From: Reyranella sp.
Lineage (GTDB): Bacteria; Pseudomonadota; Alphaproteobacteria; Reyranellales; Reyranellaceae
DNA length: 64,000 bases
Assembly: GCF_004297405.1 (NCBI RefSeq)
Contig: NZ_SCVC01000029.1
Span: 1-64,000 of the forward strand
Reading direction: 5' to 3'
The notes below the pieces were generated by a model. The model worked only from the letters and a program-made list of their open reading frames with translations, did no database searches and had not been told where the DNA came from. The stretch's first letter is position 1. Every line of letters begins with the position of its first letter. Made by a program: the position numbers and the translations under genes. Below are positions 52,307 through 64,000 of this stretch, in pieces.

Positions 52307-53656
52307 CTGATCGCACGTCGCAAGCGCATTGGCATCATCGGGGCGGGATTCACGGGCTCGATGCTCGCGGCCCGGCTCGCCCGACAATCGCCTGCGCCGG
52401 TGGATATTTTCCTGTTCGACCGCAACAGAGCTTTCGGGCGTGGCGTTGCCTACGCGACCGAGATCGATCGCCATCTCTTGAACGTGCCGGCAGCCAGCAT
52501 GAGCGCCCATGTCGAGGAGCCGGCGCATTTCCTTGGCTGGCTAAGAGGAAAGGGCCGCGAGGTCGAGGACGGTGCCTTTCTGCCGCGCGGTCTCTACGGA
52601 AACTATCTGCGCGATATCCTCGGCCGATCTCCCGATGTCTCCACGATTTCCGCCGACGTCCAGGGATTGCAAGTCGGTGACGGTGGTGTGGCGCTTTCGT
52701 TATCGGACGGTCGGGGATTGGACGTCGACCGGGCCATCCTTTGCCTCGGCAATTTTCCACCCGCTTCGCCAGTAGACGAGCACATCGACGAAACCTGCGT
52801 CGATCACTATGTCGCCGATCCCTGGCATTCCGGCAGGCTGTCGGAGGTGACGCCCGATGACACGGTCGTGTTGATCGGCACCAGCCTCACCATGGTCGAT
52901 GTCGTGTTGGAACTCGTCGCCAAAGGTCATCGCGGCCGTCTGGTTGCGGTGTCGCGGCGCGGTCTGCTGCCGGCGGCGCACCGCAAGGCGCAGCCCGCCA
53001 GATCGCCTTTCTCGCTCGACCATTTGCCGAACGATATGGCGAACCTGGTCCATGTGCTGCGGACGGCGGCGGAGGAAGAGAAACGCCGTGGTGGCGACTG
53101 GCGCACGGTCGTGGATTCGCTGCGCCCGCATACGCAAGCCCTGTGGCGCCGCCTGCCCATCGCCGAGCGCCGTCGCTTCATGCGCCATGTCAGGCCGTAC
53201 TGGGAAGTTCACCGCCACAGGCTGGCGCCGCAGGTCGCGGAGGAGTTGGCGGCCCTACGACGAGACGGCCGGCTCGAAATCGTGGCCGGACGGGTGCGCG
53301 AGATCGTGGCCCGTCCGAACGGCGTTCGCGTCAGCATCGCCAGGCGGCGCAGTGCGGCTCGGGAAGTCGTCGACAGCGGCTGGGTGGTCAACTGTTCGGG
53401 GCCGGCGCTCGACTACAGCCGGATCGATGATCCGCTCCTAGTGTCGCTGTTTGCCGACGGCCTCGTGCGGCCGGGGCCGTTGCGCCTTGGGCTGGATGTC
53501 GATGACGATTACCGCCTGATCGATCGGATGGGGATCGCCTCGCCGCAGCTCTTTGCCCTGGGGCCGATGATTCGCGGCGTGCTCTGGGAGACGACCGCCG
53601 TGCCCGACATTCGACGTCAGTGCGACGCGTTGGCGAAATTCCTCGCGGCGTCCTAG
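52307..53656 (+). CDS. FAD/NAD(P)-binding protein with an apparent CTG start
   Basis: A protein of about 449 residues with an N-terminal Rossmann fold RIGIIGAGFTGSMLAARLA, then FGRGVAYATEIDRHLLNVPA and VVLIGTSLTMVDVVLEL, the PF13454 (NAD_binding_9) layout. The first ATG (52361) falls inside the Rossmann motif, and no ATG, GTG or TTG exists upstream in frame before the stop at 52211. CTG 52307 has GGGAG seven bases upstream and adds an Arg/Lys-rich start (IARRKRIGIIG), so I chose it. Its substrate is unknown. It overlaps the convergent ATPase gene by four bases. Confidence 0.75.
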   Translation: MIARRKRIGIIGAGFTGSMLAARLARQSPAPVDIFLFDRNRAFGRGVAYATEIDRHLLNVPAASMSAHVEEPAHFLGWLRGKGREVEDGAFLPRGLYGNYLRDILGRSPDVSTISADVQGLQVGDGGVALSLSDGRGLDVDRAILCLGNFPPASPVDEHIDETCVDHYVADPWHSGRLSEVTPDDTVVLIGTSLTMVDVVLELVAKGHRGRLVAVSRRGLLPAAHRKAQPARSPFSLDHLPNDMANLVHVLRTAAEEEKRRGGDWRTVVDSLRPHTQALWRRLPIAERRRFMRHVRPYWEVHRHRLAPQVAEELAALRRDGRLEIVAGRVREIVARPNGVRVSIARRRSAAREVVDSGWVVNCSGPALDYSRIDDPLLVSLFADGLVRPGPLRLGLDVDDDYRLIDRMGIASPQLFALGPMIRGVLWETTAVPDIRRQCDALAKFLAAS

Positions 53657-54420
53657 TCGCGTTGCGGGCCGACGACGTAGCGCCCGCTTTCGGTGCGCTC
53701 GACGATGACAGGCACGCTGTAAACGGAACTCAGCACAGGGCCCGTCAGAGTTTCGTGCGACGTGCCGTAGGCGGCGAGGCGGCCGTCGGCGATGACGGCA
53801 ACCCTGGTTGCCAGTTCGCGCGCCTGGTCCGGATCGTGGGTCGAGAAGACGACACCGAAACCGCGCTCGCGCAAGGTGCGCACGCGATCGAGCACCAGGA
53901 AGCGATTGCCCAGGTCGAGGCTCGCCGTCGGCTCGTCCATCACCAGGAGCGGTGCATCTTGCGCCAAAGCGCGGGCGACCAGGCAGAGCTGGCGCTGGCC
54001 GCCGGAGATGCGATTTGCCTCGCGGTCGGAGAGATCGAGGATGCCGAGTTCGTCGAGCGCGGCCCGTGCGCGATTGTAGTCGGTGGTGCTGGGCGCTGCG
54101 AAAGGTCCGAGATGCGCCGTGCGGCCCATCAGCACCAGGTCGAGGACGGTATAGGCGAACTCCATCACCTGCGCCTGCGGAACATAGGCCACGGCGCGGG
54201 CAAGCGCCTGGCGTGACAGGCTGGCAACCGGCTTGCCCTCGATCTCGACTTCACCATCGAGTGCTGGGATGAGACCGAGGAGGGTCTTGAACAGCGTCGT
54301 CTTGCCGGCACCGTTCGGCCCCAGCAGGCAGAGCACTTCACCGCGGCCGACGGCGAGATCGATTCCTTCTGCGACGCGACGCTGCGGGTAGCCGATGGCG
54401 AGGCGGCGGGCCTGCAGCAT
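53653..54420 (-). CDS. FecE/MolC-type ABC transporter ATP-binding protein
   Basis: A 255-residue ATPase of the siderophore/cobalamin/molybdate class: Walker A GPNGAGKTTLFKTLLG, signature ISGGQRQL, Walker B LLVMDEPTASLDLG and switch FSTHDPDQA. It starts two bases after the permease gene and ends the minus-strand operon mop-trmO-binding protein-permease-ATPase. The molbindin, ModE boxes and modA nearby suggest molybdate or tungstate as the substrate, as in Haemophilus MolBCA, rather than an iron chelate. Confidence 0.88.
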   Translation of the reverse strand: MLQARRLAIGYPQRRVAEGIDLAVGRGEVLCLLGPNGAGKTTLFKTLLGLIPALDGEVEIEGKPVASLSRQALARAVAYVPQAQVMEFAYTVLDLVLMGRTAHLGPFAAPSTTDYNRARAALDELGILDLSDREANRISGGQRQLCLVARALAQDAPLLVMDEPTASLDLGNRFLVLDRVRTLRERGFGVVFSTHDPDQARELATRVAVIADGRLAAYGTSHETLTGPVLSSVYSVPVIVERTESGRYVVGPQRD

Positions 54421-54422
54421 GG

Positions 54423-55424
54423 TCAACTCCACACGCGACGGCCGCGCGCCAGCAGCCACACGAAGAGCGGTGCGCCAATCAGCGCCGTCAGCAGGCCGAG
54501 CGGGATTTCGATGCGGGCAGCGGAGCGCGCCAGGGTATCGACCAGCACCAGGAACGCTGCTCCCATTAGGATGGACGCCGGCAGCACGCGGTCGTAGCGC
54601 GGACCAACCAGCGGGCGGACCATGTGCGGGATCATCAGGCCGATCCAGCCGACGACACCCGAGACGGAGACGGCCGCGGCGGTGATCAACGTGGCGGCGG
54701 CGATCACGACACCGCGCACGAAGCCGACATTGACGCCGAGCGCGCGCGCTTCGTCGTCACCCAGCGACAGGACGCCGATCCGCCAGCGCAGCAAGGCCAG
54801 TGGCAGGAGTCCGACGATCACCAGCGGGGCGACGCTCCAGACATCGTCGACCTTGATGCCCGACAGGCTGCCCAGCAGCCAGAAGGTGATGGCGGGAAGC
54901 TGGTTGTAGGGATCGGCCAGGATCTTCACCAGCGAGATGCCGGCACCGGCAAGCGCGCCGACGACGATGCCGGCCAACACCAGCACCAGGACTTCATTCT
55001 GGCTGCGCAGTGTGCGGGCGAGGGCGTAGACGATGGCGACCGTTGCAAGGCCCGTCACGAAGCCCAGCCCCTGGATGGCAATCACGGGCAGCGACAGCAG
55101 GATGCCGAGGACGGCGCCGAAGCCCGCACCGGCCGAGACGCCCAATATGTCCGGCGATACCAGCGGATTGCGGAAGAGTGTTTGATAGCTGGCGCCGGCG
55201 GCGGCCAGGGCGGCGCCGACCAGAGCCGCCGCCAGAACGCGCGGCAGCCGGATCTGAAACAGGATGGTGTCGATGTGAGGTGAGTAGACGTCTCCGCGGA
55301 GCCGCGCGAAAAGCGCACCGATGACGTCGCCTGCCGGGATCGGGTAGGGGCCAACCATGCTGCCGACCAGCATGGCGGCGAGCAGGCCTAGGGCGAGCAG
55401 GGTTACGATTGGGACGGCGCGCAT
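54423..55424 (-). CDS. FecCD/MolB-type ABC transporter permease
   Basis: A 333-residue permease with about ten hydrophobic segments and the family stretches LPRVLAAALVGAALAAAGASYQTLFRNPLVSPDILGVSAGAGFGAVLG (read in pieces such as LPRVLAAALVGAALAAAG), ARALGVNVGFVRG and GWIGLMIPHMVRPLVGP. I chose ATG 55424, seven bases after the binding-protein stop; the frame is open further upstream without support. The FecCD class covers iron-siderophore, heme, B12 and molybdate transporters. Confidence 0.88.
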   Translation of the reverse strand: MRAVPIVTLLALGLLAAMLVGSMVGPYPIPAGDVIGALFARLRGDVYSPHIDTILFQIRLPRVLAAALVGAALAAAGASYQTLFRNPLVSPDILGVSAGAGFGAVLGILLSLPVIAIQGLGFVTGLATVAIVYALARTLRSQNEVLVLVLAGIVVGALAGAGISLVKILADPYNQLPAITFWLLGSLSGIKVDDVWSVAPLVIVGLLPLALLRWRIGVLSLGDDEARALGVNVGFVRGVVIAAATLITAAAVSVSGVVGWIGLMIPHMVRPLVGPRYDRVLPASILMGAAFLVLVDTLARSAARIEIPLGLLTALIGAPLFVWLLARGRRVWS

Positions 55425-55431
55425 GAGGCCG

Positions 55432-56466
55432 TCAATTTGCCGTGCCGCCCAGCAGTCGCGCCAGTTGCTCGTCGGTGAGGACGACGCCGTAGAACAGTTC
55501 GTAGAAGCCCCGCGTCTCGGCGCGCAAGTCAATGCCTGCCTCGGTCGGATAGAACAGGGACAGCAGCCAGCGCAGGCCGATCAGCCGGTTGAGCGAGGGC
55601 GGTGCATCGATCCAGCCCCACGGGAGGCTCGGCGCGAGATGGACGCGGTTATTTGCGACGGCGCGTACCTGATTCCAGCCGGGCTTGGTCTTCACATTGG
55701 TGAAGAAGGTCCGGTCGAGCGTGACGATGATGTCAGGCTGCCAGGCGATGATCTGCTCCAGCGAGGCATTGGAGATATTGCCGCTGCCACCCAGTCCCTG
55801 GGCGACGTTGACGGCGCCGGCATGCTCGATGATTTCGGTATTGATCGAGCCCCGGCTGCCGGTCTCCAGTCCTTCGGCTCCGCGCGCGAGATAGACCCGC
55901 GGTCGGCGGTCGGCGGGAACACGCGCCAGCACCCGATCGACCATGGCAAAGCTCGCCTCGGCATAGGCGGCGAGGTTGGCGGCCCGTTCGGCGCGGCCCA
56001 GCATGTCGCCTGCCAGCTTCAACGACGCGGCCGTTGCCGCAAAGCGACCGTCGATCAGGGCGTAGGGAATGCCGGTCTGGCTCTGCACGCGGTCAGCCAG
56101 TGAGACGAATGTCTCCGACACCGACCCGAAGTCGAGGACCATGTCGGGCTTGGCCGCAACCAGCCGCTCCAGGCTCACCGTGTCGCCGCGTCCGGTGAGG
56201 CGGCCGGTCTCGGGCAGATCGCGCGCCGGGGCGGCGAGAAATTCCTTCTCGGCGGGCGAGGGCGTGCGGATCCAGCCCACCATTGCGTCGCGGGCCAGCG
56301 TGTACGCCAGCACCGAGGCCGGCGGTCCGGCCACGAAGAGGCGATCAATGCGTGCGGGGAGCGTGACTTTGCGGCCGGCCGAATCGACGATCGTTCGGGT
56401 TTGGGCAAGGGCCGGACGTGCGATGAGGCCGGCGCCCAGCAGGGCAAGGGCGTCGCGACGCCTCAC
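55432..56466 (-). CDS. FecB/MolA-type periplasmic binding protein
   Basis: A 344-residue secreted protein with a Tat-like signal (MRRRDALALLGAGLIARPALAQ) and a two-lobed class III binding domain. Visible parts are IVDSAGRKVTLPARIDRLFVAGPP, LERLVAAKPDMVLDFG, and ASLEQIIAWQPDIIVTLD. The genomic setting (molbindin, ModE, modA) suggests it binds molybdate or tungstate like MolA; relatives bind siderophores or vitamin B12. ATG 56466 overlaps the TrmO-like stop by four bases. Confidence 0.85.
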   Translation of the reverse strand: MRRRDALALLGAGLIARPALAQTRTIVDSAGRKVTLPARIDRLFVAGPPASVLAYTLARDAMVGWIRTPSPAEKEFLAAPARDLPETGRLTGRGDTVSLERLVAAKPDMVLDFGSVSETFVSLADRVQSQTGIPYALIDGRFAATAASLKLAGDMLGRAERAANLAAYAEASFAMVDRVLARVPADRRPRVYLARGAEGLETGSRGSINTEIIEHAGAVNVAQGLGGSGNISNASLEQIIAWQPDIIVTLDRTFFTNVKTKPGWNQVRAVANNRVHLAPSLPWGWIDAPPSLNRLIGLRWLLSLFYPTEAGIDLRAETRGFYELFYGVVLTDEQLARLLGGTAN

Positions 56467-56969: not shown

Positions 56970-57176
56970 TCAGTCGAGGCCGACCATGACGTCGGAGGCC
57001 TTGATGACGGCATAGGCCTCCTGGCCGACCTTGAGGCCGAGCTCGTCGACGGCGTCGTTAGTAATGGCCGCCGTGACAATGATGCCGTTCACGTCGATCC
57101 GGACATGGGCGGTCGTCTGGCCTTTCTTCACCTCGACGATCTTGCCCTTCAATCGGTTCCTGGCGCTGATCCGCAT
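56970..57176 (-). CDS. mop: Molbindin (single Mop domain)
   Basis: A 68-residue protein made of one Mop (TOBE-like) domain: MRISARNRLKGKIVEVKKG, AHVRIDVNGIIVTAAIT and EAYAVIKASDVMVGLD. Such proteins form hexamers that store molybdate or tungstate. The ATG 57176 has AGGAGG upstream. It is the first gene of the operon that includes the transporter, divergent from modA across a 169-base gap. As the ModE regulator here has no Mop domain, this protein may also act as its oxyanion sensor; that is inference. Confidence 0.9.
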   Translation of the reverse strand: MRISARNRLKGKIVEVKKGQTTAHVRIDVNGIIVTAAITNDAVDELGLKVGQEAYAVIKASDVMVGLD

Positions 57177-57296: not shown

Positions 57297-57320
57297 CGAT
57301 ATGTTCAAACTGATATATCG
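57297..57320. promoter_or_regulatory. ModE-box-like dyad upstream of modA
   Basis: CGATATGT (57297-57304) and ATATATCG (57313-57320) have one mismatch and an eight-base spacer, the same geometry as the two boxes at 58937-58960 and 59508-59533. It lies 25 bases before the modA ATG, overlapping a possible -10 (CGATAT, 17 bases after TTGTCC at 57274). It could also serve the divergent mop operon. Confidence 0.55.
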
Positions 57321-57345: not shown

Positions 57346-58137
57346 ATGCTGGCAACTCGTCGAATTTTCACGGCAGCCTTGGCCGCAGCCGCGCTGGCGT
57401 TGGCCGGTGGCGGGACACGGCCCGCTGAAGCGCAGAGCAAGGACGTCGTCATTCTTGCGGCGGCCAGCCTGAAGAACGCCCTCGATGAGGTCTCGGCTGC
57501 CTGGAACAAGCAGACCGGCAAGTCGACCAAGGTTTCCTATGCCGCGAGCTCGGTGCTTGCCAAGCAGATCGAGGGCGGCATTCCCGCCGACATCTTCATT
57601 TCAGCCGACGTTCCCTGGATGGACTATGTCGCCGAACGCAAGCTGATCAAGGCGCCGAGCCGTTCCGACTTTCTCGGCAACCAGATCGTGCTGATCGCCG
57701 CCAAGGATTCCAAGATCGATCTCAAGATCGACAAGGGATTCGGGCTGCGCGCGGCGCTGGGCAATGACGGCCGGCTGGCCATGGGCAATGTCGACTCCGT
57801 TCCGGCAGGCAAGTATGGCAAAGCGGCGCTGGAGTCGCTGGGCGTATGGTCCTCGGTGGCCGACCGCGTGGCCCAGGCGGAGAATGTGCGTATGGCGCTG
57901 ACGCTCGTCTCGCGCGGCGAGGCGCCGCTGGGTATCGTCTACAAGACCGATGCCGCGTCCGATCCCAATGTGCGCATCGTCGGCGCCTTCCCCGATGGCA
58001 CGCATCCGCCGATCATCTATCCGATGGCGCTGCTCGCCAGCTCGACCAATCCGGACGCGCAGGCCTTCGTCGACTATCTGAAGTCGCCGGCCGGCAAGCC
58101 CTTCTTCGAGAAGCAGGGCTTTACTGTACTGAAGTAA
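57346..58137 (+). CDS. modA: Molybdate ABC transporter substrate-binding protein ModA
   Basis: A 263-residue periplasmic protein with a signal peptide ending AEAQ and the ModA motifs ILAAASLKNALDEVSAAW, SSVLAKQIEGGIPADIFISADVPWMD and APLGIVYKTDAA. The start ATG 57346 has GGGAGAG upstream; ATG 57301 is in frame but lies in the ModE-like box. No modB or modC follows; the next gene is convergent and overlaps by 17 bases. Its permease may therefore be the FecCD-type one on the other strand or one encoded elsewhere. Confidence 0.92.
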   Translation: MLATRRIFTAALAAAALALAGGGTRPAEAQSKDVVILAAASLKNALDEVSAAWNKQTGKSTKVSYAASSVLAKQIEGGIPADIFISADVPWMDYVAERKLIKAPSRSDFLGNQIVLIAAKDSKIDLKIDKGFGLRAALGNDGRLAMGNVDSVPAGKYGKAALESLGVWSSVADRVAQAENVRMALTLVSRGEAPLGIVYKTDAASDPNVRIVGAFPDGTHPPIIYPMALLASSTNPDAQAFVDYLKSPAGKPFFEKQGFTVLK

Positions 58138-58519
58138 GGGCAGGTGCTTCGCTGCCGGCGAGGAGCAGGGAACGTCCCAGCTTCTCGGCGGCAGCGGCTG
58201 GCATGGAGAAGCCCACCGTTGCTGGGCCGACGGCGACCGCCAGCAGCGTCTCGCCGCCCGGCAGTTCTCCGACGCTGAGTGAGTCGGTCGGGACCAACGA
58301 GAGCTTGGCGCCGGCATCAGGTTCGACTTGAGGCAGGGCGCGGCCCAGCAGAAGCAGGAGAGGCACCAGCCGCTGCAGGTCCGCGGCCGGAATGGTGAGC
58401 GTCGTGCGCTCGCCGCCGCGGCGTACCACGGAAAGCTGAACGGCATTGGCCTGCGGCAGGAGCTCGCCGCTCACCTCGACTGCCTGACTGAGGTCGATCC
58501 GTTGTTCGTTGTTGTCCAT
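58121..58519 (-). CDS. Unknown small protein, second of a ModE-box-linked pair
   Basis: A 132-residue cytosolic protein with no recognised domain. Its layout, a beta stretch (RTTLTIPAADLQRLVPLLLL), a helix, then LLAVAVGPATVGFSMPAAAAEKLGRSLLLAG, parallels the upstream gene (SVVLPTDCLRALLMTLPNVI ... GFKVSFALSPEDAGGLAMSL), so the two are probably distant paralogues. It starts 10 bases after that gene. Its 3' end overlaps modA by 17 bases on the opposite strand. Location suggests a role in molybdenum or aldehyde metabolism. Confidence 0.7.
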   Translation of the reverse strand: MDNNEQRIDLSQAVEVSGELLPQANAVQLSVVRRGGERTTLTIPAADLQRLVPLLLLLGRALPQVEPDAGAKLSLVPTDSLSVGELPGGETLLAVAVGPATVGFSMPAAAAEKLGRSLLLAGSEAPALTSVQ

Positions 58520-58529
58520 CCACCAAGGC

Positions 58530-58910
58530 CTAGTTGAAGGCTGCACGCGGCTGATCGACATCGATGTCGACCAAGGACATGGCCAGCCCTCCGGCATCTT
58601 CGGGCGACAGGGCAAAGGACACCTTGAAGCCGTCCGGCGTCGTCATGGTGAGGATCCGGCTATCGCTGCCGGCCGCCGCCTGCAGGGAGAAACCGCCCAT
58701 CGGGTAGACGACCTTCAACGTATCGTCGCGGTAGCGCGCCTTCAGGGCCTGCTCGATGACGTTAGGCAAGGTCATCAGCAGCGCACGCAGGCAATCGGTC
58801 GGCAACACGACCGAGGCGGGGCGGCCGTCGGCGTCTTCCATGACGATGCGAAACGAGTCGCCCGTGGGATCAACCTGGCAGGTGGTCAGAGCCTTGCCGA
58901 CGATTTCCAT
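58530..58910 (-). CDS. Unknown small protein, first of a ModE-box-linked pair
   Basis: A 126-residue cytosolic protein with no recognised family: MEIVGKALTTCQVDPTGDSF, then VLPTDCLRALLMTLPNVIEQAL and GFKVSFALSPEDAGGLAMSLVD. I chose ATG 58910; the frame is open to 58973 but that part would encode the ModE-like box itself. The box ends 27 bases upstream of the ATG, so expression likely follows molybdate level. It lies just downstream of modE on the same strand. Confidence 0.72.
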   Translation of the reverse strand: MEIVGKALTTCQVDPTGDSFRIVMEDADGRPASVVLPTDCLRALLMTLPNVIEQALKARYRDDTLKVVYPMGGFSLQAAAGSDSRILTMTTPDGFKVSFALSPEDAGGLAMSLVDIDVDQPRAAFN

Positions 58911-58936: not shown

Positions 58937-58960
58937 CGCTATATCCAGTAAGATATAACG
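58937..58960. promoter_or_regulatory. ModE-box-like dyad upstream of the unknown pair
   Basis: CGCTATAT (58937-58944) and ATATAACG (58953-58960) have seven of eight arm positions paired and an eight-base spacer. This closely matches the Escherichia coli ModE site (TATAT/ATATA cores with CG ends). It sits between the modE stop (59004) and the start of the unknown pair (58910), where it would control the pair. Confidence 0.7.
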
Positions 58961-59003: not shown

Positions 59004-59402
59004 CTAGTGCAGCTTGTCGGCCGGAGGCGTCAACAGGCGGGCGAGCGAGCGCATTTCCGGCGTCGAGGCGCCATAGGCGCGACGTTCCATCTCGCGGTAG
59101 AGCCGGACGATGTCGTTGCCGGTTTCGGTGACCACGGCACCGCCGCCGCCGCCGCCGCCCGTCTGGGCCGTGACGACCGGCTCACGAAACATCTTGTTGA
59201 GTTCGTCGATCAACAGCCACGCCTGACGGTAGGACATCTCCAGGGCGCGGCCGGCCGCAGAGATCGAGCCGGTCTCGTTGATCAGCTCGAGCAGGCGGAT
59301 TTTGCCGGGTCCGATTGATCGCTCTCCACCGAAGTCGATCCGCAGATGCAATGAGGTCTTCTCGGTGGCCTTGGTGGCTGGCTTGGTCAGCGTGCGTCCC
59401 AT
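59004..59402 (-). CDS. modE: ModE-type regulator, DNA-binding domain only
   Basis: A 132-residue winged-helix protein with the ModE N-terminal signature: LHLRIDFGGERSIGPGKIRLLELI, NETGSISAAGRALEMSYRQAW and the wing with seven glycines followed by AVVTETG. Full-length ModE has two extra C-terminal Mop domains that bind molybdate; they are absent here, so sensing may rely on the separate molbindin at 56970. I chose ATG 59402; TTG 59435 is in frame. It is divergent from the aldehyde dehydrogenases, with a box in the gap. Confidence 0.85.
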   Translation of the reverse strand: MGRTLTKPATKATEKTSLHLRIDFGGERSIGPGKIRLLELINETGSISAAGRALEMSYRQAWLLIDELNKMFREPVVTAQTGGGGGGGAVVTETGNDIVRLYREMERRAYGASTPEMRSLARLLTPPADKLH

Positions 59403-59488
59403 GATGATGCAATTATGCGATAGGCGGCCCGTCAAAACCAGATGCTGTGGGGCCTGGCCGGAGCGGTCTTGACCTCGGTGGATTGGCC

Positions 59489-59533
59489 GTGACGGCTGGC
59501 AAACCGCTCGTTATATTCAATTAAATATAACGA
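59489..59533. promoter_or_regulatory. ModE box over the aldehyde dehydrogenase promoter
   Basis: TCGTTATATT (59508-59517) and AATATAACGA (59524-59533) are perfect ten-base arms with a six-base spacer, the best ModE-like site in the window. A plus-strand promoter GTGACG (59489-59494), 17 bases, TATATT (59512-59517) puts the -10 inside the left arm, so bound ModE should repress the dehydrogenase genes. The site is also 106 bases upstream of modE and may be involved in autoregulation. Confidence 0.75.
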
Positions 59534-59563
59534 AGAAGAGTTTGCTGAAATCAGGAGGAAAAC

Positions 59564-61060
59564 ATGGACGTTTCAGCCAATGTCGGGCGCCTCGGCGCCG
59601 CTGCTTCCGCTTTCATTTCCAAGCCCCACAAGCTTCTGATCGATGGCAAGTGGGTCGTCGCCAAGGGCGGCAAGACCTTCCCGGTATTCGATCCCGCCAC
59701 GGGCGGCCAGATCGCGGCGGTCGCGGACGGGGGAGCGGCCGATATTGATCTCGCCGTGAAAGCCGCACGCAAGGCTTTCGACGACGGACCCTGGGGCAAG
59801 GTGAAGCCGACGGAGCGCGGAAAGATCGTCTGGCGGCTGGCCGACCTGCTCGAAAAGCACGCCACCGAGCTGGCCGAAATCGAGAGCATCGACAATGGCA
59901 AGCCGGTCAGCGACGCCAAGATGGTCGACCTGCCGTTCTCCTGCGAACTTCTGCGCTACATGGCCGGTTGGGCGACCAAGATCACCGGCCAGAGCATTCC
60001 GCTGTCCGCGCCCGGCGAATGGCATGCCTATTCGATGCGCGAGCCGGTCGGCGTGGTTGGCCAGATCATCCCCTGGAATTTCCCGCTGATGATGGCCGTC
60101 TGGAAGATCGCGCCGGCCCTCACGGCAGGCTGCACCATCGTGCTGAAGCCGGCCGAGCAGACACCGCTTTCGGCTATTCGCCTCGGCGAGTTGATCATGG
60201 AGGCGGGCTTTCCGCCCGGTGTGGTGAACATCGTGACGGGCGACGGCACGCCGGGCGCTGCGTTGGCGGCTCATCCCGATGTCGACAAGGTGGCCTTCAC
60301 CGGGTCGACAGAGGTCGGCAAGCTGATCGTTCAGGCCGCTGCGGGGAACCTCAAGAAGGTGAGCCTGGAGCTCGGTGGCAAGTCGCCGTCCTTCGTGTTT
60401 CCCGATGCCGATCTCTCGGTGGCCATTCCGGGGGCGGCGACCGGTATCTTCTTCAACATGGGCCAGTGCTGCACGGCAGGCTCGCGCCTCTTCGTGCACG
60501 AACGCCTGTTCGACAAGATGATGGCCGGCCTGTCCGACGAAGCTCAGAAGCTCAAGATCGGCCCAGGCCTCGACCCGACGACGCGCGTGGGTCCGCTGGT
60601 CTCCGAGGAGCAATTCCAACGGGTCACCGGCTATCTCGCGTCAGGCAAGGAGCAGGGCGCCGAAGCCATCACCGGCGGCCGGCGGCATGGCAATGAGGGC
60701 TATTTCATCGAACCCACCGTGCTGACCAAGACGACACCCACGATGAAGGTCGTCCGGGAGGAGATTTTCGGACCGGTCGTCTGCGCCATGCCCTTCAACG
60801 ACGACGATCTCGAGCGTATTGCCCGCCAGGGCAATGCGACTGAGTACGGGTTGGCGGCGAGCATCTGGACCCGCGATATCGGCGTTGCTCACAAGCTTGC
60901 GCGCAAGCTCAAGGCCGGCTCGGTCTGGATCAACGTCCATAACTTCAACGACGTGGCGCTGCCGTTCGGTGGCTACAAGCAATCCGGCTGGGGCCGCGAA
61001 ATGGGTTACGAGGCGATCGAGCTCTACACCGAGGTGAAAGCCGTCGCCGCAATGCTCTGA
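59564..61060 (+). CDS. NAD-dependent aldehyde dehydrogenase, first of a tandem pair
   Basis: A 498-residue enzyme that oxidises an aldehyde to its acid. It has the NAD-binding stretch GVVGQIIPWNFPLMMAVWK, the general base in VSLELGGKSPSF, the catalytic cysteine in MGQCCTAGSRLFVHE and the end motif PFGGYKQSGWGREMGYEA. AGGAGG lies upstream of ATG 59564. It is preceded by a strong ModE-like box, so it may be made when molybdate is scarce. The aldehyde is unknown. Confidence 0.92.
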   Translation: MDVSANVGRLGAAASAFISKPHKLLIDGKWVVAKGGKTFPVFDPATGGQIAAVADGGAADIDLAVKAARKAFDDGPWGKVKPTERGKIVWRLADLLEKHATELAEIESIDNGKPVSDAKMVDLPFSCELLRYMAGWATKITGQSIPLSAPGEWHAYSMREPVGVVGQIIPWNFPLMMAVWKIAPALTAGCTIVLKPAEQTPLSAIRLGELIMEAGFPPGVVNIVTGDGTPGAALAAHPDVDKVAFTGSTEVGKLIVQAAAGNLKKVSLELGGKSPSFVFPDADLSVAIPGAATGIFFNMGQCCTAGSRLFVHERLFDKMMAGLSDEAQKLKIGPGLDPTTRVGPLVSEEQFQRVTGYLASGKEQGAEAITGGRRHGNEGYFIEPTVLTKTTPTMKVVREEIFGPVVCAMPFNDDDLERIARQGNATEYGLAASIWTRDIGVAHKLARKLKAGSVWINVHNFNDVALPFGGYKQSGWGREMGYEAIELYTEVKAVAAML

Positions 61061-61073
61061 GAGGAGAGAATCA

Positions 61074-62570
61074 ATGACTGTAGTTGAGAAGGGCGTTGCC
61101 CAGCGCCCAGCCTATATCGATGGCAAAGTGAAGCTGATGCTGATCGATGGCCGCTGGGTAGCGGCCGCATCGGGCAAGACGTTTGAAAGCCGCAACCCGG
61201 CGACCGGCGAATTGCTCGCCCGGGTCGCAGAAGGTGATCGCGAGGACATCGACCGGGCGGTGGCTGCCGCCCGCAAGGCCTTCAATGGGCCGTGGAGCAA
61301 ATGGAAGCCGGCGGAGCGGCAGTTGCTGCTGCTCAAGCTCGCCGATCTGGTCGAGCAGCATATCGAAGAACTGGCGGCGCTCGACACGTTCGACATGGGT
61401 GCCCCCATTTCCCGTACACGCAACAACCGGCAGCGTGCTGTCGGCATGCTGCGCTACTACGCCGGGATGGCGACCTCCTTGCATGGCGAGACCATCGAGA
61501 ACTCGCTGGTCGGGGAGATCTTCTCCTACACCTTGAAGGAGCCGGTTGGCGTGGTCGGCGCCATCATTCCCTGGAACGGCCCGCTCACGGCGACCATCTG
61601 GAAGATCGGCCCGGCGCTGGCCACGGGCTGCACCGTCGTGCTGAAGCCGGCGGAAGAAGCGCCGCTCACCTCGTTGCGACTGGGCGAGCTTTGCCTGGAA
61701 GCCGGTGTGCCGCCCGGTGTCGTCAATGTCGTGCCAGGATTCGGCGAGACGGCGGGCGCCGCCTTGTCATCGCACCCCGACGTCGACAAGGTCGCCTTCA
61801 CGGGCTCGCATGTCACCGGCCAGAAGATCGTCCAGGCGTCGGCCGGCAATCTCAAGCGCGTGTCGCTGGAACTGGGCGGCAAGTCGCCGGACATCGTCTT
61901 TGCCGACGCGGACCTCGACGCCGCGGTACCTGGCGCCAGCATGGCGGTGTTCGCCAACTCCGGTCAGATCTGCAGCGCCGGAACGCGGCTCTTCGTCGAG
62001 AAGAAGGTGTACGAGGAGTTCACCGACAAAGTGGCCCGGTTCGCCAAGAACCTGAAGGTCGGCAATGGCGTTAATCCGGAAACCCAGGTCGGTCCACTCG
62101 TCTCTTCCGAGCAGCTCGATCGCGTCACCGACTATCTCAGCATCGGCCGGCAGGAAGGGGCGAAGCGGCTGAGCGGCGGCGAGCGGCTGACCGACGGCGA
62201 CTACCAGAAGGGCTACTTCGTGCCACCGACGGTATTCGCCGACGTGCGCGACGACATGCGGATCGCTCAGGAAGAGATCTTCGGGCCGGTGATCTCGGCG
62301 ATCCCTTTCACCGACATCGACGAAGTGATCCAGCGCGGCAACGCCACGACCTTCGGTCTCGGCAGCGGTGTGTGGACCCGCGACGTCAGCAAGGCTCATC
62401 GCCTGGCCAAGGCCATCCGTGCGGGCTCGGTATGGGTCAACTGCTACCAGGCGATGGACCCGGCCGTACCCTTCGGCGGCTACAAGATGAGCGGCTATGG
62501 CCGTGAAAGCGGCAAGCAGCACCTCGAAGAGTACCTCAACGTCAAGGCGGTCTGGATCAAGACCGCCTAA
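61074..62570 (+). CDS. NAD-dependent aldehyde dehydrogenase, second of a tandem pair
   Basis: A 498-residue paralogue of the gene 13 bases upstream, same length. It has GVVGAIIPWNGPLTATIWK, LELGGKSPDIVFADADL, the catalytic cysteine in NSGQICSAGTRLFVEKK and PFGGYKMSGYGRESGKQ. Differences around the cysteine and the N-terminal region suggest a different substrate or a heteromeric partner. It would share the ModE-controlled transcript. Confidence 0.92.
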   Translation: MTVVEKGVAQRPAYIDGKVKLMLIDGRWVAAASGKTFESRNPATGELLARVAEGDREDIDRAVAAARKAFNGPWSKWKPAERQLLLLKLADLVEQHIEELAALDTFDMGAPISRTRNNRQRAVGMLRYYAGMATSLHGETIENSLVGEIFSYTLKEPVGVVGAIIPWNGPLTATIWKIGPALATGCTVVLKPAEEAPLTSLRLGELCLEAGVPPGVVNVVPGFGETAGAALSSHPDVDKVAFTGSHVTGQKIVQASAGNLKRVSLELGGKSPDIVFADADLDAAVPGASMAVFANSGQICSAGTRLFVEKKVYEEFTDKVARFAKNLKVGNGVNPETQVGPLVSSEQLDRVTDYLSIGRQEGAKRLSGGERLTDGDYQKGYFVPPTVFADVRDDMRIAQEEIFGPVISAIPFTDIDEVIQRGNATTFGLGSGVWTRDVSKAHRLAKAIRAGSVWVNCYQAMDPAVPFGGYKMSGYGRESGKQHLEEYLNVKAVWIKTA

Positions 62571-62696
62571 GCGCATTACGTGTGACATAACCTCTGGGCT
62601 GGATGGTCCTCCGGCTCAGAGGCTGCGGCCTCGTAGGCCCTGCAATAGTGCCCTGTATGGGGCATAGTCCGTCCGAGAATCGGCAGTAGGCCGTAA
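62571..62696 (+). other. Gap with several short hairpins before the AGE-family gene
   Basis: The 126 bases between the second dehydrogenase and the isomerase gene hold no gene. CCTCTG ... CAGAGG (about 62592-62622) and TGCCC ... GGGCA (about 62651-62667) can form hairpins, but no T tract follows, so I do not call a terminator. The 5' leader of the isomerase gene may be structured. Confidence 0.35.
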
Positions 62697-63896
62697 ATGG
62701 ATGGAAGAATGAACGACGTCGAAGGCGATCTCGGCCTCCTCCGGGGGCGTCTGCTGCAGTGGTTGATGAACGATGCTCTGCCGATCTGGTGGAGCGTCGG
62801 CGCCGACAAGACGGGAGGTGGCTTCCACGAGGCCATCGACCACGCTGGCGAGCCAATCATCGCCGATCGCCGGGCGCGGGTGCAGGCGCGGCAGATCTTC
62901 ACCTATGCCGTGGCGCGGGACATGGGCTGGAGCGGACCGGCGCACGAAGCCATGACCCACGGTCTGGACTACTTCCTGGGGCGGTATCGGCGGCCGGACG
63001 GCCTGTTCTGCAACGCCCTGACCGTCGACGGAAAGCCGGCCGAAGCAGCGCCTTACCTCTACGAGCAAGCCTTTGCGCTCCTGGCCATGGCGACTGCCCA
63101 TGGGGTTGAGAACCGGACGCCGGAACTGGTGCCGGTCGCCGAACAGCTTTTGGAGCGCTTGCTCAGCGAGCGGCGAGGTCATGCGGGTGGGTTCACCGGC
63201 TTCGTGGACGATGCCGTCTACCAGTCCGATCCGCACATGCATCTTTTCGAAACGGCATTGGCCTGGGAGGAAATCTCGTCCGATCCGCGCTGGTCTCGCC
63301 TGGCCGATGAACTGGCCGAGCTCTGCCTTGCGCGTTTCATCACCAAGGATCGTGGCATCCTGCTCGAATATTTCGACTCCTCCTGGGCGCCGGCGGCAGG
63401 TGATATGGGACGCCTGGTCTGGCCGGGGCATCAGTTCGAATGGGCGGGCTTGCTGGAGCGCTGGGCGCTCTCGCGTGGCCGTGATGATGTCCGCAAAGTC
63501 GCGCGGCGTCTCTATCGCATCGGTGCGGATCACGGGATCGATGCGAAGCGCGGCGTCGCAGTCTTCGAGTTGACGGACGAGATGGTCGTGAACGATCCCA
63601 AGGCACGGCTCTGGGCACAGGCCGAATGGCTGAAGGCCGCGATCATCCTGGCACGCTCGGAGACGGACGCGGCGACACGCTTGAGCTATCTCGCCGATGC
63701 TGCAGCAGGGGCGCGGTCGTTGCTGTGCTTCCTGCAGACGCCCGTCGGCGGTTTGTGGCGAGACAAGCTGACTGGCGAGGGGGAGTGGATCGACGAGCCC
63801 GCGCCGGCGAGCTCGTTCTATCACATCATCGATTCGCTGCGCGTACTGGCGGCGTGGCAGGCCGACCCGAGTAAATCGGGCCGGCCCAAGATGTAA
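62697..63896 (+). CDS. AGE-family sugar epimerase/isomerase
   Basis: A 399-residue (alpha/alpha)6-barrel protein of the N-acylglucosamine 2-epimerase family, which includes mannose and cellobiose epimerases. Typical parts are GGGFHEAIDHAGEPI, RVQARQIFTYAVARDMGW, YLYEQAFALLAMATAHGV, HMHLFETALAWEEIS and RLVWPGHQFEWAGLLERW, with conserved histidines at the barrel centre. ATG 62697 or 62709 could be the start. The sugar cannot be told. Confidence 0.88.
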   Translation: MDGRMNDVEGDLGLLRGRLLQWLMNDALPIWWSVGADKTGGGFHEAIDHAGEPIIADRRARVQARQIFTYAVARDMGWSGPAHEAMTHGLDYFLGRYRRPDGLFCNALTVDGKPAEAAPYLYEQAFALLAMATAHGVENRTPELVPVAEQLLERLLSERRGHAGGFTGFVDDAVYQSDPHMHLFETALAWEEISSDPRWSRLADELAELCLARFITKDRGILLEYFDSSWAPAAGDMGRLVWPGHQFEWAGLLERWALSRGRDDVRKVARRLYRIGADHGIDAKRGVAVFELTDEMVVNDPKARLWAQAEWLKAAIILARSETDAATRLSYLADAAAGARSLLCFLQTPVGGLWRDKLTGEGEWIDEPAPASSFYHIIDSLRVLAAWQADPSKSGRPKM

Positions 63897-63905
63897 CCAG
63901 CAGGC

Positions 63906-64000
63906 TCAGGCGGCCTGATAGCCGATCACGGCCTTGGTCTCGAGGAACTCTTCGAGGCCCCACTTGCCGTATTCACGGCCATTGCCCGATTGCTTGTATC
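63906..64000 (-). CDS. Aldehyde dehydrogenase, C-terminal end (cut by the right edge)
   Basis: Thirty codons and a stop of a third aldehyde dehydrogenase, read from the right edge: [20 protein letters not shown], then [10 protein letters not shown]. The opening YKQSGNGRE is the usual final-loop motif of this family. It is convergent with the AGE-family gene, nine bases away. The start lies beyond the window. Confidence 0.85.

Follow-up and report, generated by a model that had tools for sequence, protein, structure and literature searches.

A putative ModE operator over the promoter of tandem NAD-type aldehyde dehydrogenases in Reyranella and its recurrence ahead of related genes

Does the regulator ModE control enzymes that need no molybdenum? 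The question is raised by a 64,000-bp stretch of Reyranella sp. DNA (contig NZ_SCVC01000029.1, positions 1 to 64,000; hereafter the window), in which a ModE-type box lies over the predicted promoter of two tandem NAD-type aldehyde dehydrogenase (ALDH) genes, ALDH1 and ALDH2. An earlier note on this DNA had suggested that ModE represses these enzymes when molybdate is plentiful, swapping cofactor use by metal supply. On balance, we favour the reading that ModE binds the box as its operator and, in this clade, controls NAD-type ALDHs along with molybdate uptake. The regulatory half of the suggestion is backed by the conservation of the box and its overlap with the predicted -10 element, and to a lesser degree by the fact that few genomes lacking ModE have it; the swap half is an extrapolation, which we weigh separately.

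The box, CGTTATATTCAATTAAATATAACG, occupies positions 59509-59532 (no strand is assigned to the boxes) and covers the -10 element and the expected start of the ALDH1-ALDH2 promoter. Its dyad arms, 59508-59520 and 59521-59533, are 92% complementary, and base pairing is perfect over their outer ten bases, TCGTTATATT and AATATAACGA. The box matches CGTTATATN8ATATAACG with no mismatch, and this pattern was absent from 100 dinucleotide shuffles of the window even when 3 mismatches were allowed. It is a 24-bp dyad of 9-6-9 layout, the layout of the ModE consensus as described in the text of PMC2700814, and differs from the consensus core CGCTATATA-N6-TATATAACG given there at 3 of 18 arm positions. 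A sigma-70-like promoter, GTGACG-17-TATATT, spans 59489-59517 on the forward strand, with GTGACG beginning at 59489 and TATATT ending at 59517; it is the sole one found in 59380-62760, where shuffles predict 0.4. The predicted -10 TATATT falls within the box. Both the perfect ten-base arms and the cover of the -10 reported in the earlier note were thus confirmed. In the window and in two relatives (G034 and G017), the box and GTGACG are kept amid diverged flanks. Ahead of stand-alone ALDH2 genes in four genomes TTGACG stands 11 bp before the box, with a spacer of 16, by our own count, between it and a TATATG hexamer within the box.

The genes behind this promoter are full-length. ALDH1 (59564-61060, forward strand) and ALDH2 (61074-62570, forward strand) each encode 498 amino acids and share 53% identity, and ALDH2 starts 13 bases past the ALDH1 stop. 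Both products carry a PF00171 domain and the catalytic motifs with Asn, Glu and Cys, together with KPxE, a motif associated with the use of NAD; their earlier assignment as two tandem NAD-type ALDHs is upheld. Among the best 25 of 43 NCBIfam models for each protein (StyD, betaine-aldehyde dehydrogenase and others), none reached its cut-off to indicate a substrate; the top-scoring model for ALDH1, StyD, is under its own. The promoter was also said to lead only into these two genes. It does lead into them, but perhaps not only into them, as an AGE-family gene, which may be co-transcribed with ALDH1-ALDH2, begins at 62697, 126 bp past ALDH2, with no terminator detected between the two. A third gene, ALDH3, a PF00171-type ALDH with catalytic motifs, enters the window with its 3' end (63906-64000, reverse strand) and extends beyond it to C41:65336. 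Ahead of this leftward gene, outside the window, lies a symmetrical dyad of its own, CGTTGTATATATATGGATACAACG (C41:65370-65393).

Is the box kept before these genes in related genomes? A strict box occurs in 45 of 75 genomes of Reyranellaceae, the family to which this genome belongs, and the reversed pattern in 0 of 75. Among 67 strict boxes in the loci fetched from relatives, which are not independent counts (their genomes share ancestry, and a single ALDH1 accounts for two of the ALDH boxes), 22 have an ALDH within 250 bp downstream, 24 have modA and 21 have neither. The nearest recognised gene to these last is orfA in 7 cases, modE in 3, mop in 1 and MolA in 1, and 9 are without any query gene. 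We scored about 300 bp upstream of each gene, its strand set by peptide matches, with a matrix trained on 28 boxes ahead of modA only, so that the ALDH sites had no part in the training. On 3,200 shuffled upstream regions of ALDH2 relatives, 99.9% scored below 10.3 and the maximum was 20.9. At a threshold of 12, set after the values were seen, a box was found ahead of ALDH1 in 5/5 cases, ahead of stand-alone ALDH2 in 9/10 (3 further copies are in tandem behind an ALDH1 box) and ahead of ALDH3 in 17/18, the eighteenth lying after a modE gene that is itself preceded by a 1-mismatch box. The search in related genomes that the earlier note had called for finds the same box before the same genes. 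By comparison, a paralogue of ALDH3 with 64-68% identity, ALDH3b, reached the threshold in 2 of the 12 matches with a locus (16 matches in all), and other ALDHs of the same Reyranella genome in 0/5 (11 ALDH-domain matches; besides ALDH1-3, five were scored and three left out). As a control, other open reading frames of the box-centred loci reached it in 23/407 cases, some of them sharing the box with modA or an ALDH.

The ALDH boxes often lie away from modE, and ALDH2 is boxed without a modE neighbour in L071, L081, L093, L099, L062 and L065. Since many genomes keep the box ahead of ALDHs of three lineages, and do so at a distance from modE as well, control of these ALDHs by ModE appears very probable. 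Genes of other kinds are also found behind such boxes. In five relatives a DUF2325 gene is closely preceded by a ModE-type box (L062:5173-6471, L081:1260-2546, L099:6914-8224, L109:4391-5740 and L111:6987-8312), and EamA-family transporter genes stand directly behind strict boxes in two (L066:6686-7648 and L085:6917-7861). Two relatives carry short-chain dehydrogenases (L109:7381-8235 and L111:8398-9252), one after a boxed ALDH2 on the same strand and the other with a 1-mismatch box 153 bp upstream.

The box does not stand alone. It sits in a molybdenum cluster, absent from the earlier note's account, of modE, modA, mop, a MolABC-like importer and orphan genes; leftward from the box come divergent modE, a second box with orfA and orfB, a boxed modA, mop, trmO and a FecCD-type importer. 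The ModE-like regulator (59004-59402, reverse strand) has 132 amino acids from its ATG, with an alternative TTG start at 59435, and comprises a helix-turn-helix (HTH) domain only. HTH-only ModE with a separate mop gene is the arrangement here, and many ModE matches of other genomes likewise lie in open frames of 120-200 amino acids; many genomes, a large share of them Bradyrhizobium, also contain open frames of about 365 amino acids whose ModE-like HTH is weak (43-52 bits). The second ModE-type box, CGCTATATCCAGTAAGATATAACG (58937-58960), precedes orfA, and the third, CGATATGTTCAAACTGATATATCG (57297-57320), precedes modA (57346-58137, forward strand), whose product is a molybdate-binding protein (TIGR01256, E 1.3e-56, above cut-off). 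The mop gene (56970-57176, reverse strand) encodes a 68-residue TOBE molybdate-binding protein (TIGR00638, E 1.5e-24, above cut-off; PF03459), a candidate for a separate sensor. The ATP-binding cassette importer of FecCD type (53653-56466, reverse strand; binding protein, permease and ATPase, with PF01497, PF01032 and PF00005) is MolABC-like by architecture and adjoins mop in several relatives.

We searched the whole genome for CGNTATATN8ATATNNCG with up to one mismatch. Four sites match on both strands, the three of the window and C32:151796-151819, and two more on one strand; the reversed pattern gave 0 matches in the genome. The C32 box lies 21 bp ahead of a modB-modC pair, both products of which pass their NCBIfam cut-offs. 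The predicted ModE regulon of this genome would accordingly comprise molybdate uptake, the orphan genes and three ALDHs.

Does the pairing of box and ALDH extend beyond the family and depend on ModE? Relatives of ALDH2 at 91% identity or above occur in Reyranella soli, Enhydrobacter aerosaccus and metagenome-assembled genomes, and those at 77-85% identity in Bradyrhizobium, Rhodopila, Roseomonas and others. Outside Reyranellaceae many are boxed (Bradyrhizobium, Roseococcus and others), some with modE or orfA nearby. The search for ModE covered the genomes behind 70 of 80 ALDH2 loci (47 + 21 genomes, two loci sharing one, with L162 left out), and presence was taken as a match of at least 60 bits, a threshold set after the values were seen; eight genomes had no such match. 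Six loci with ALDH2 behind ALDH1 (L115, L116, L148, L157, L165 and L186) were left out of the comparison, and eight Reyranellaceae loci among the 65 were taken as ModE-bearing without a hidden Markov model scan, the comparison outside the family excluding them. At the shuffle-based threshold of 10.3, a box precedes ALDH2 in 43/65 ModE-bearing and 1/8 ModE-less genomes (Fisher p 0.005, this and the following p values being optimistic for related genomes), and in 34/55 versus 1/8 outside Reyranellaceae (p 0.018). At 12 the counts are 42/65 versus 0/8 (p 0.0006), and 18/26 versus 0/6 within Bradyrhizobium (p 0.003); at 20.9 they are 21/65 versus 0/8 (p 0.095). Two of the ModE-less genomes score 8.8 and 10.8, and the other six below zero. 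This contrast is supporting, not decisive, and depends on the threshold.

A class-wide draw of 387 genomes points the same way, with a strict box in 34 and the reversed pattern in 4. Thirty genomes outside the family had a match, and for 26 of them one locus each was available. Fifteen of these 26 loci hold modA or modE, and four (L244, L245, L249 and L253) have an ALDH within 250 bp of the box, against about 0.4% expected per locus (p near 3e-6), a rate that we estimated roughly by taking nine full ALDHs among about 6,000 genes. Two further loci were not counted: in L252 the ALDH starts about 420 bp from the box, and in L265 an ALDH ends, rather than begins, at the box.

What would ModE do at these promoters? 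From a strict box to the start codon the median distance in relatives is 62 bp for ALDHs (21 cases), similar to the 43 bp for modA (27 cases). Since the operator lies over the -10, the distances resemble those of modA and the ModE-like proteins of Rhodobacter capsulatus are described in the text of PMC6925177 as repressors of uptake operons and of anfA, we infer repression by molybdate, which we consider highly probable, if a little less so than control itself. In the mechanism that we propose, the HTH-only ModE would bind the box when molybdate is plentiful, its status perhaps being read by the separate Mop. Bound ModE would cover the -10 and block transcription of ALDH1-ALDH2, and ALDH3 would be blocked through the separate box ahead of it. 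In molybdate shortage the repressor would come off, and the uptake genes and the molybdenum-free ALDHs would be switched on together. The induced ALDHs could then take aldehyde oxidation over from molybdenum enzymes of the xanthine oxidase family, a family that includes aldehyde oxidoreductases.

This last step, the replacement of xanthine-oxidase-family enzymes by ALDHs at molybdate shortage, we hold to be somewhat more plausible than its opposite. The earlier note had proposed looking for a molybdenum-dependent aldehyde oxidoreductase, and candidates are plentiful: the Reyranella genome has 17 xanthine-oxidase-family matches (MoCoBD_1), and all 75 Reyranellaceae genomes have 6 to 28 each. 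As a test of the swap, this search is uninformative. We advance more tentatively still the wider picture in which, across Alphaproteobacteria, a split switch of HTH-only ModE and separate Mop would run metal-sparing aldehyde oxidation, with several ALDH lineages and an orphan family on when molybdate is scarce, standing in for molybdenum enzymes.

Several observations weigh against the favoured reading. The ModE-like protein falls under the cut-off of TIGR00637 (E 4.5e-26, 90.8 bits against 98.5), its sole Pfam domain, PF00126, scores 25.8 bits against a cut-off of 26.6, and no match to a TOBE/Mop molybdate-binding domain was found in its 143-residue frame. The box at 59509-59532 also lies 106 bp ahead of the divergent modE-like start codon, near enough to serve modE too. 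In the ModE-presence comparison, p ranges between 0.0006 and 0.095 over thresholds of 5.3 to 20.9, and reaches 0.18 if Reyranellaceae are left out; at 10.3, ALDH2 is unboxed in 22/65 ModE-bearing genomes and one ModE-less genome is boxed (10.8). Of the eight genomes without ModE, six belong to Bradyrhizobium, where the gene may have been lost once or a few times, and another is a 3.3-Mb metagenome-assembled genome that may be incomplete. As for the swap, co-occurrence cannot test it, because 75/75 genomes have xanthine-oxidase-family enzymes. Genes for such enzymes were seen in 10 of the 162 loci searched, and one lies 2.3 kb from ALDH3 in G008 (L274); neither observation is counted as evidence for the swap.

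How do other explanations fare? ModE might control the ALDHs for another purpose, either to make or recycle a molybdate-scavenging compound or to clear an aldehyde formed only in molybdate starvation. The FecCD-type importer of the cluster has a Peripla_BP_2 binding protein, and importers of this kind often serve for chelated metals; the lack of any substrate-specific assignment for ALDH1 and ALDH2 among the best 25 of 43 models each leaves room for such a role. However, no chelator-synthesis genes were recognised in the part of the cluster that was scanned, although no search was aimed at them, and three ALDH lineages behind boxes, together with the short-chain dehydrogenase of two relatives, suit general aldehyde oxidation better. 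We regard this explanation as unlikely, although it is the best placed of the alternatives.

A further alternative keeps the regulator and reverses the sign, so that ModE with molybdate would activate the ALDHs, which would work with the molybdenum enzymes and not instead of them. ModE is indeed an activator at some promoters, and activates moa and dms in E. coli. However, the operator covers the predicted -10, and the boxes stand at distances from ALDHs (median 62 bp) similar to those from modA (43 bp), a gene repressed by molybdate in R. capsulatus according to the text of PMC6925177. Activation is hence improbable, and repression remains the preferred sign.

A different regulator with a similar motif could also bind the dyad, given that the protein encoded here is HTH-only and under the ModE cut-off and that a weak ModE-like HTH is also found, in some genomes, in additional proteins of about 365 amino acids. 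Yet the 9-6-9 layout is that of the ModE consensus in the text of PMC2700814, and boxes of the same type precede modA as well as the modB-modC pair that passes NCBIfam cut-offs, which makes this very improbable. Equally remote is the idea that the box serves only the autoregulation of divergent modE, with the ALDHs as accidental neighbours, which draws on the 106 bp to the modE start codon and on strict boxes less than 200 bp ahead of modE in three relatives (L063, L098 and L099) and which we reject in view of the boxes ahead of ALDH2 without a modE neighbour and ahead of ALDH3 in 17/18 genomes, and of the overlap of the operator with the predicted ALDH -10.

The orphan genes of the putative regulon form a family of small proteins. 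orfA (58530-58910, reverse strand, 126 amino acids) lies behind the box at 58937-58960, and orfB (58121-58519, reverse strand, 132 amino acids) encodes a distant relative. A third copy, orfC (C41:65423-65821), lies outside the window and is divergent from ALDH3. Nothing in Pfam or NCBIfam was over cut-off for the three proteins, there was no match in PHROGs, and an orfA profile had no match among PDB sequences. The predicted fold of the orfA product is poor (pLDDT 61.9), and its C-terminal residue is Asn in 16/16 aligned sequences. The family occurs in 19/75 genomes, and all 34 matches listed are near a ModE-type box (up to 2 mismatches), often beside ALDHs. It is present in 17/25 genomes with ALDH2 or ALDH3 orthologues versus 2/50 others (p 5e-9). 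Relatives are found in L065, L088, L090, L131, L133, L150, L180 and others. Farther along, another degenerate dyad, CGTTATGCTTAATAAGATATAACG (C41:66123-66146, L114:4124-4147), closely precedes a small HTH gene of ArsR type and lies beside a 1085-residue open reading frame, and a similar dyad occurs in G034 (L084:13594).

The analysis suggests that ModE and its operator, both known, serve a class of targets, the ALDHs, that is unexpected and widespread. Should these ALDHs indeed be molybdenum-free substitutes repressed by molybdate, the cofactor with which soil bacteria such as Bradyrhizobium and Reyranella carry out a common step of carbon oxidation would depend on the supply of the metal. The genomes and promoters described here form a concrete set for a direct test, and they pose the question of how molybdate is read by a ModE that lacks its sensing half. 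The earlier note knew of no described ModE control of NAD-type ALDHs, and we likewise found no report in the open-access papers searched, a limited result given that "ModE" reads as the word "mode" and is nearly unsearchable, and that the Studholme and Pau 2003 survey, outside this scope, is reportedly the main survey of ModE sites and may list ALDH sites.

How does the proposed regulon compare with known systems? The Reyranella system shares with the classical E. coli-type ModE regulon boxes ahead of modA and modBC and the operator layout, the latter as described in the text of PMC2700814. It differs in its HTH-only ModE and in that, within Reyranellaceae, strict boxes lead into ALDHs nearly as often as into modA (22 versus 24 of 67). 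The predicted ModE regulon of Geobacter sulfurreducens likewise has sites ahead of metabolic genes outside molybdenum uptake; those named in the main text of PMC2700814 concern a CoA-transferase, a tRNA, transport systems and nucleases, and the term "aldehyde dehydrogenase" is absent from that main text. The closest parallel is R. capsulatus, where, according to the text of PMC6925177, the ModE-like MopA and MopB act, with molybdate, as repressors of uptake operons and of anfA, which encodes the activator for the molybdenum-free Fe-nitrogenase, so that a molybdenum-free isoenzyme system is repressed together with molybdate uptake. There, nitrogen fixation and an activator gene are concerned, whereas here the targets would be ALDH structural genes under a regulator without a detected molybdate-binding domain. 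The Fe-nitrogenase thus offers a precedent, the sole case that we met in papers of molybdate repressing a molybdenum-free substitute, and the ALDHs, if the reading proposed here is true, would be the second.

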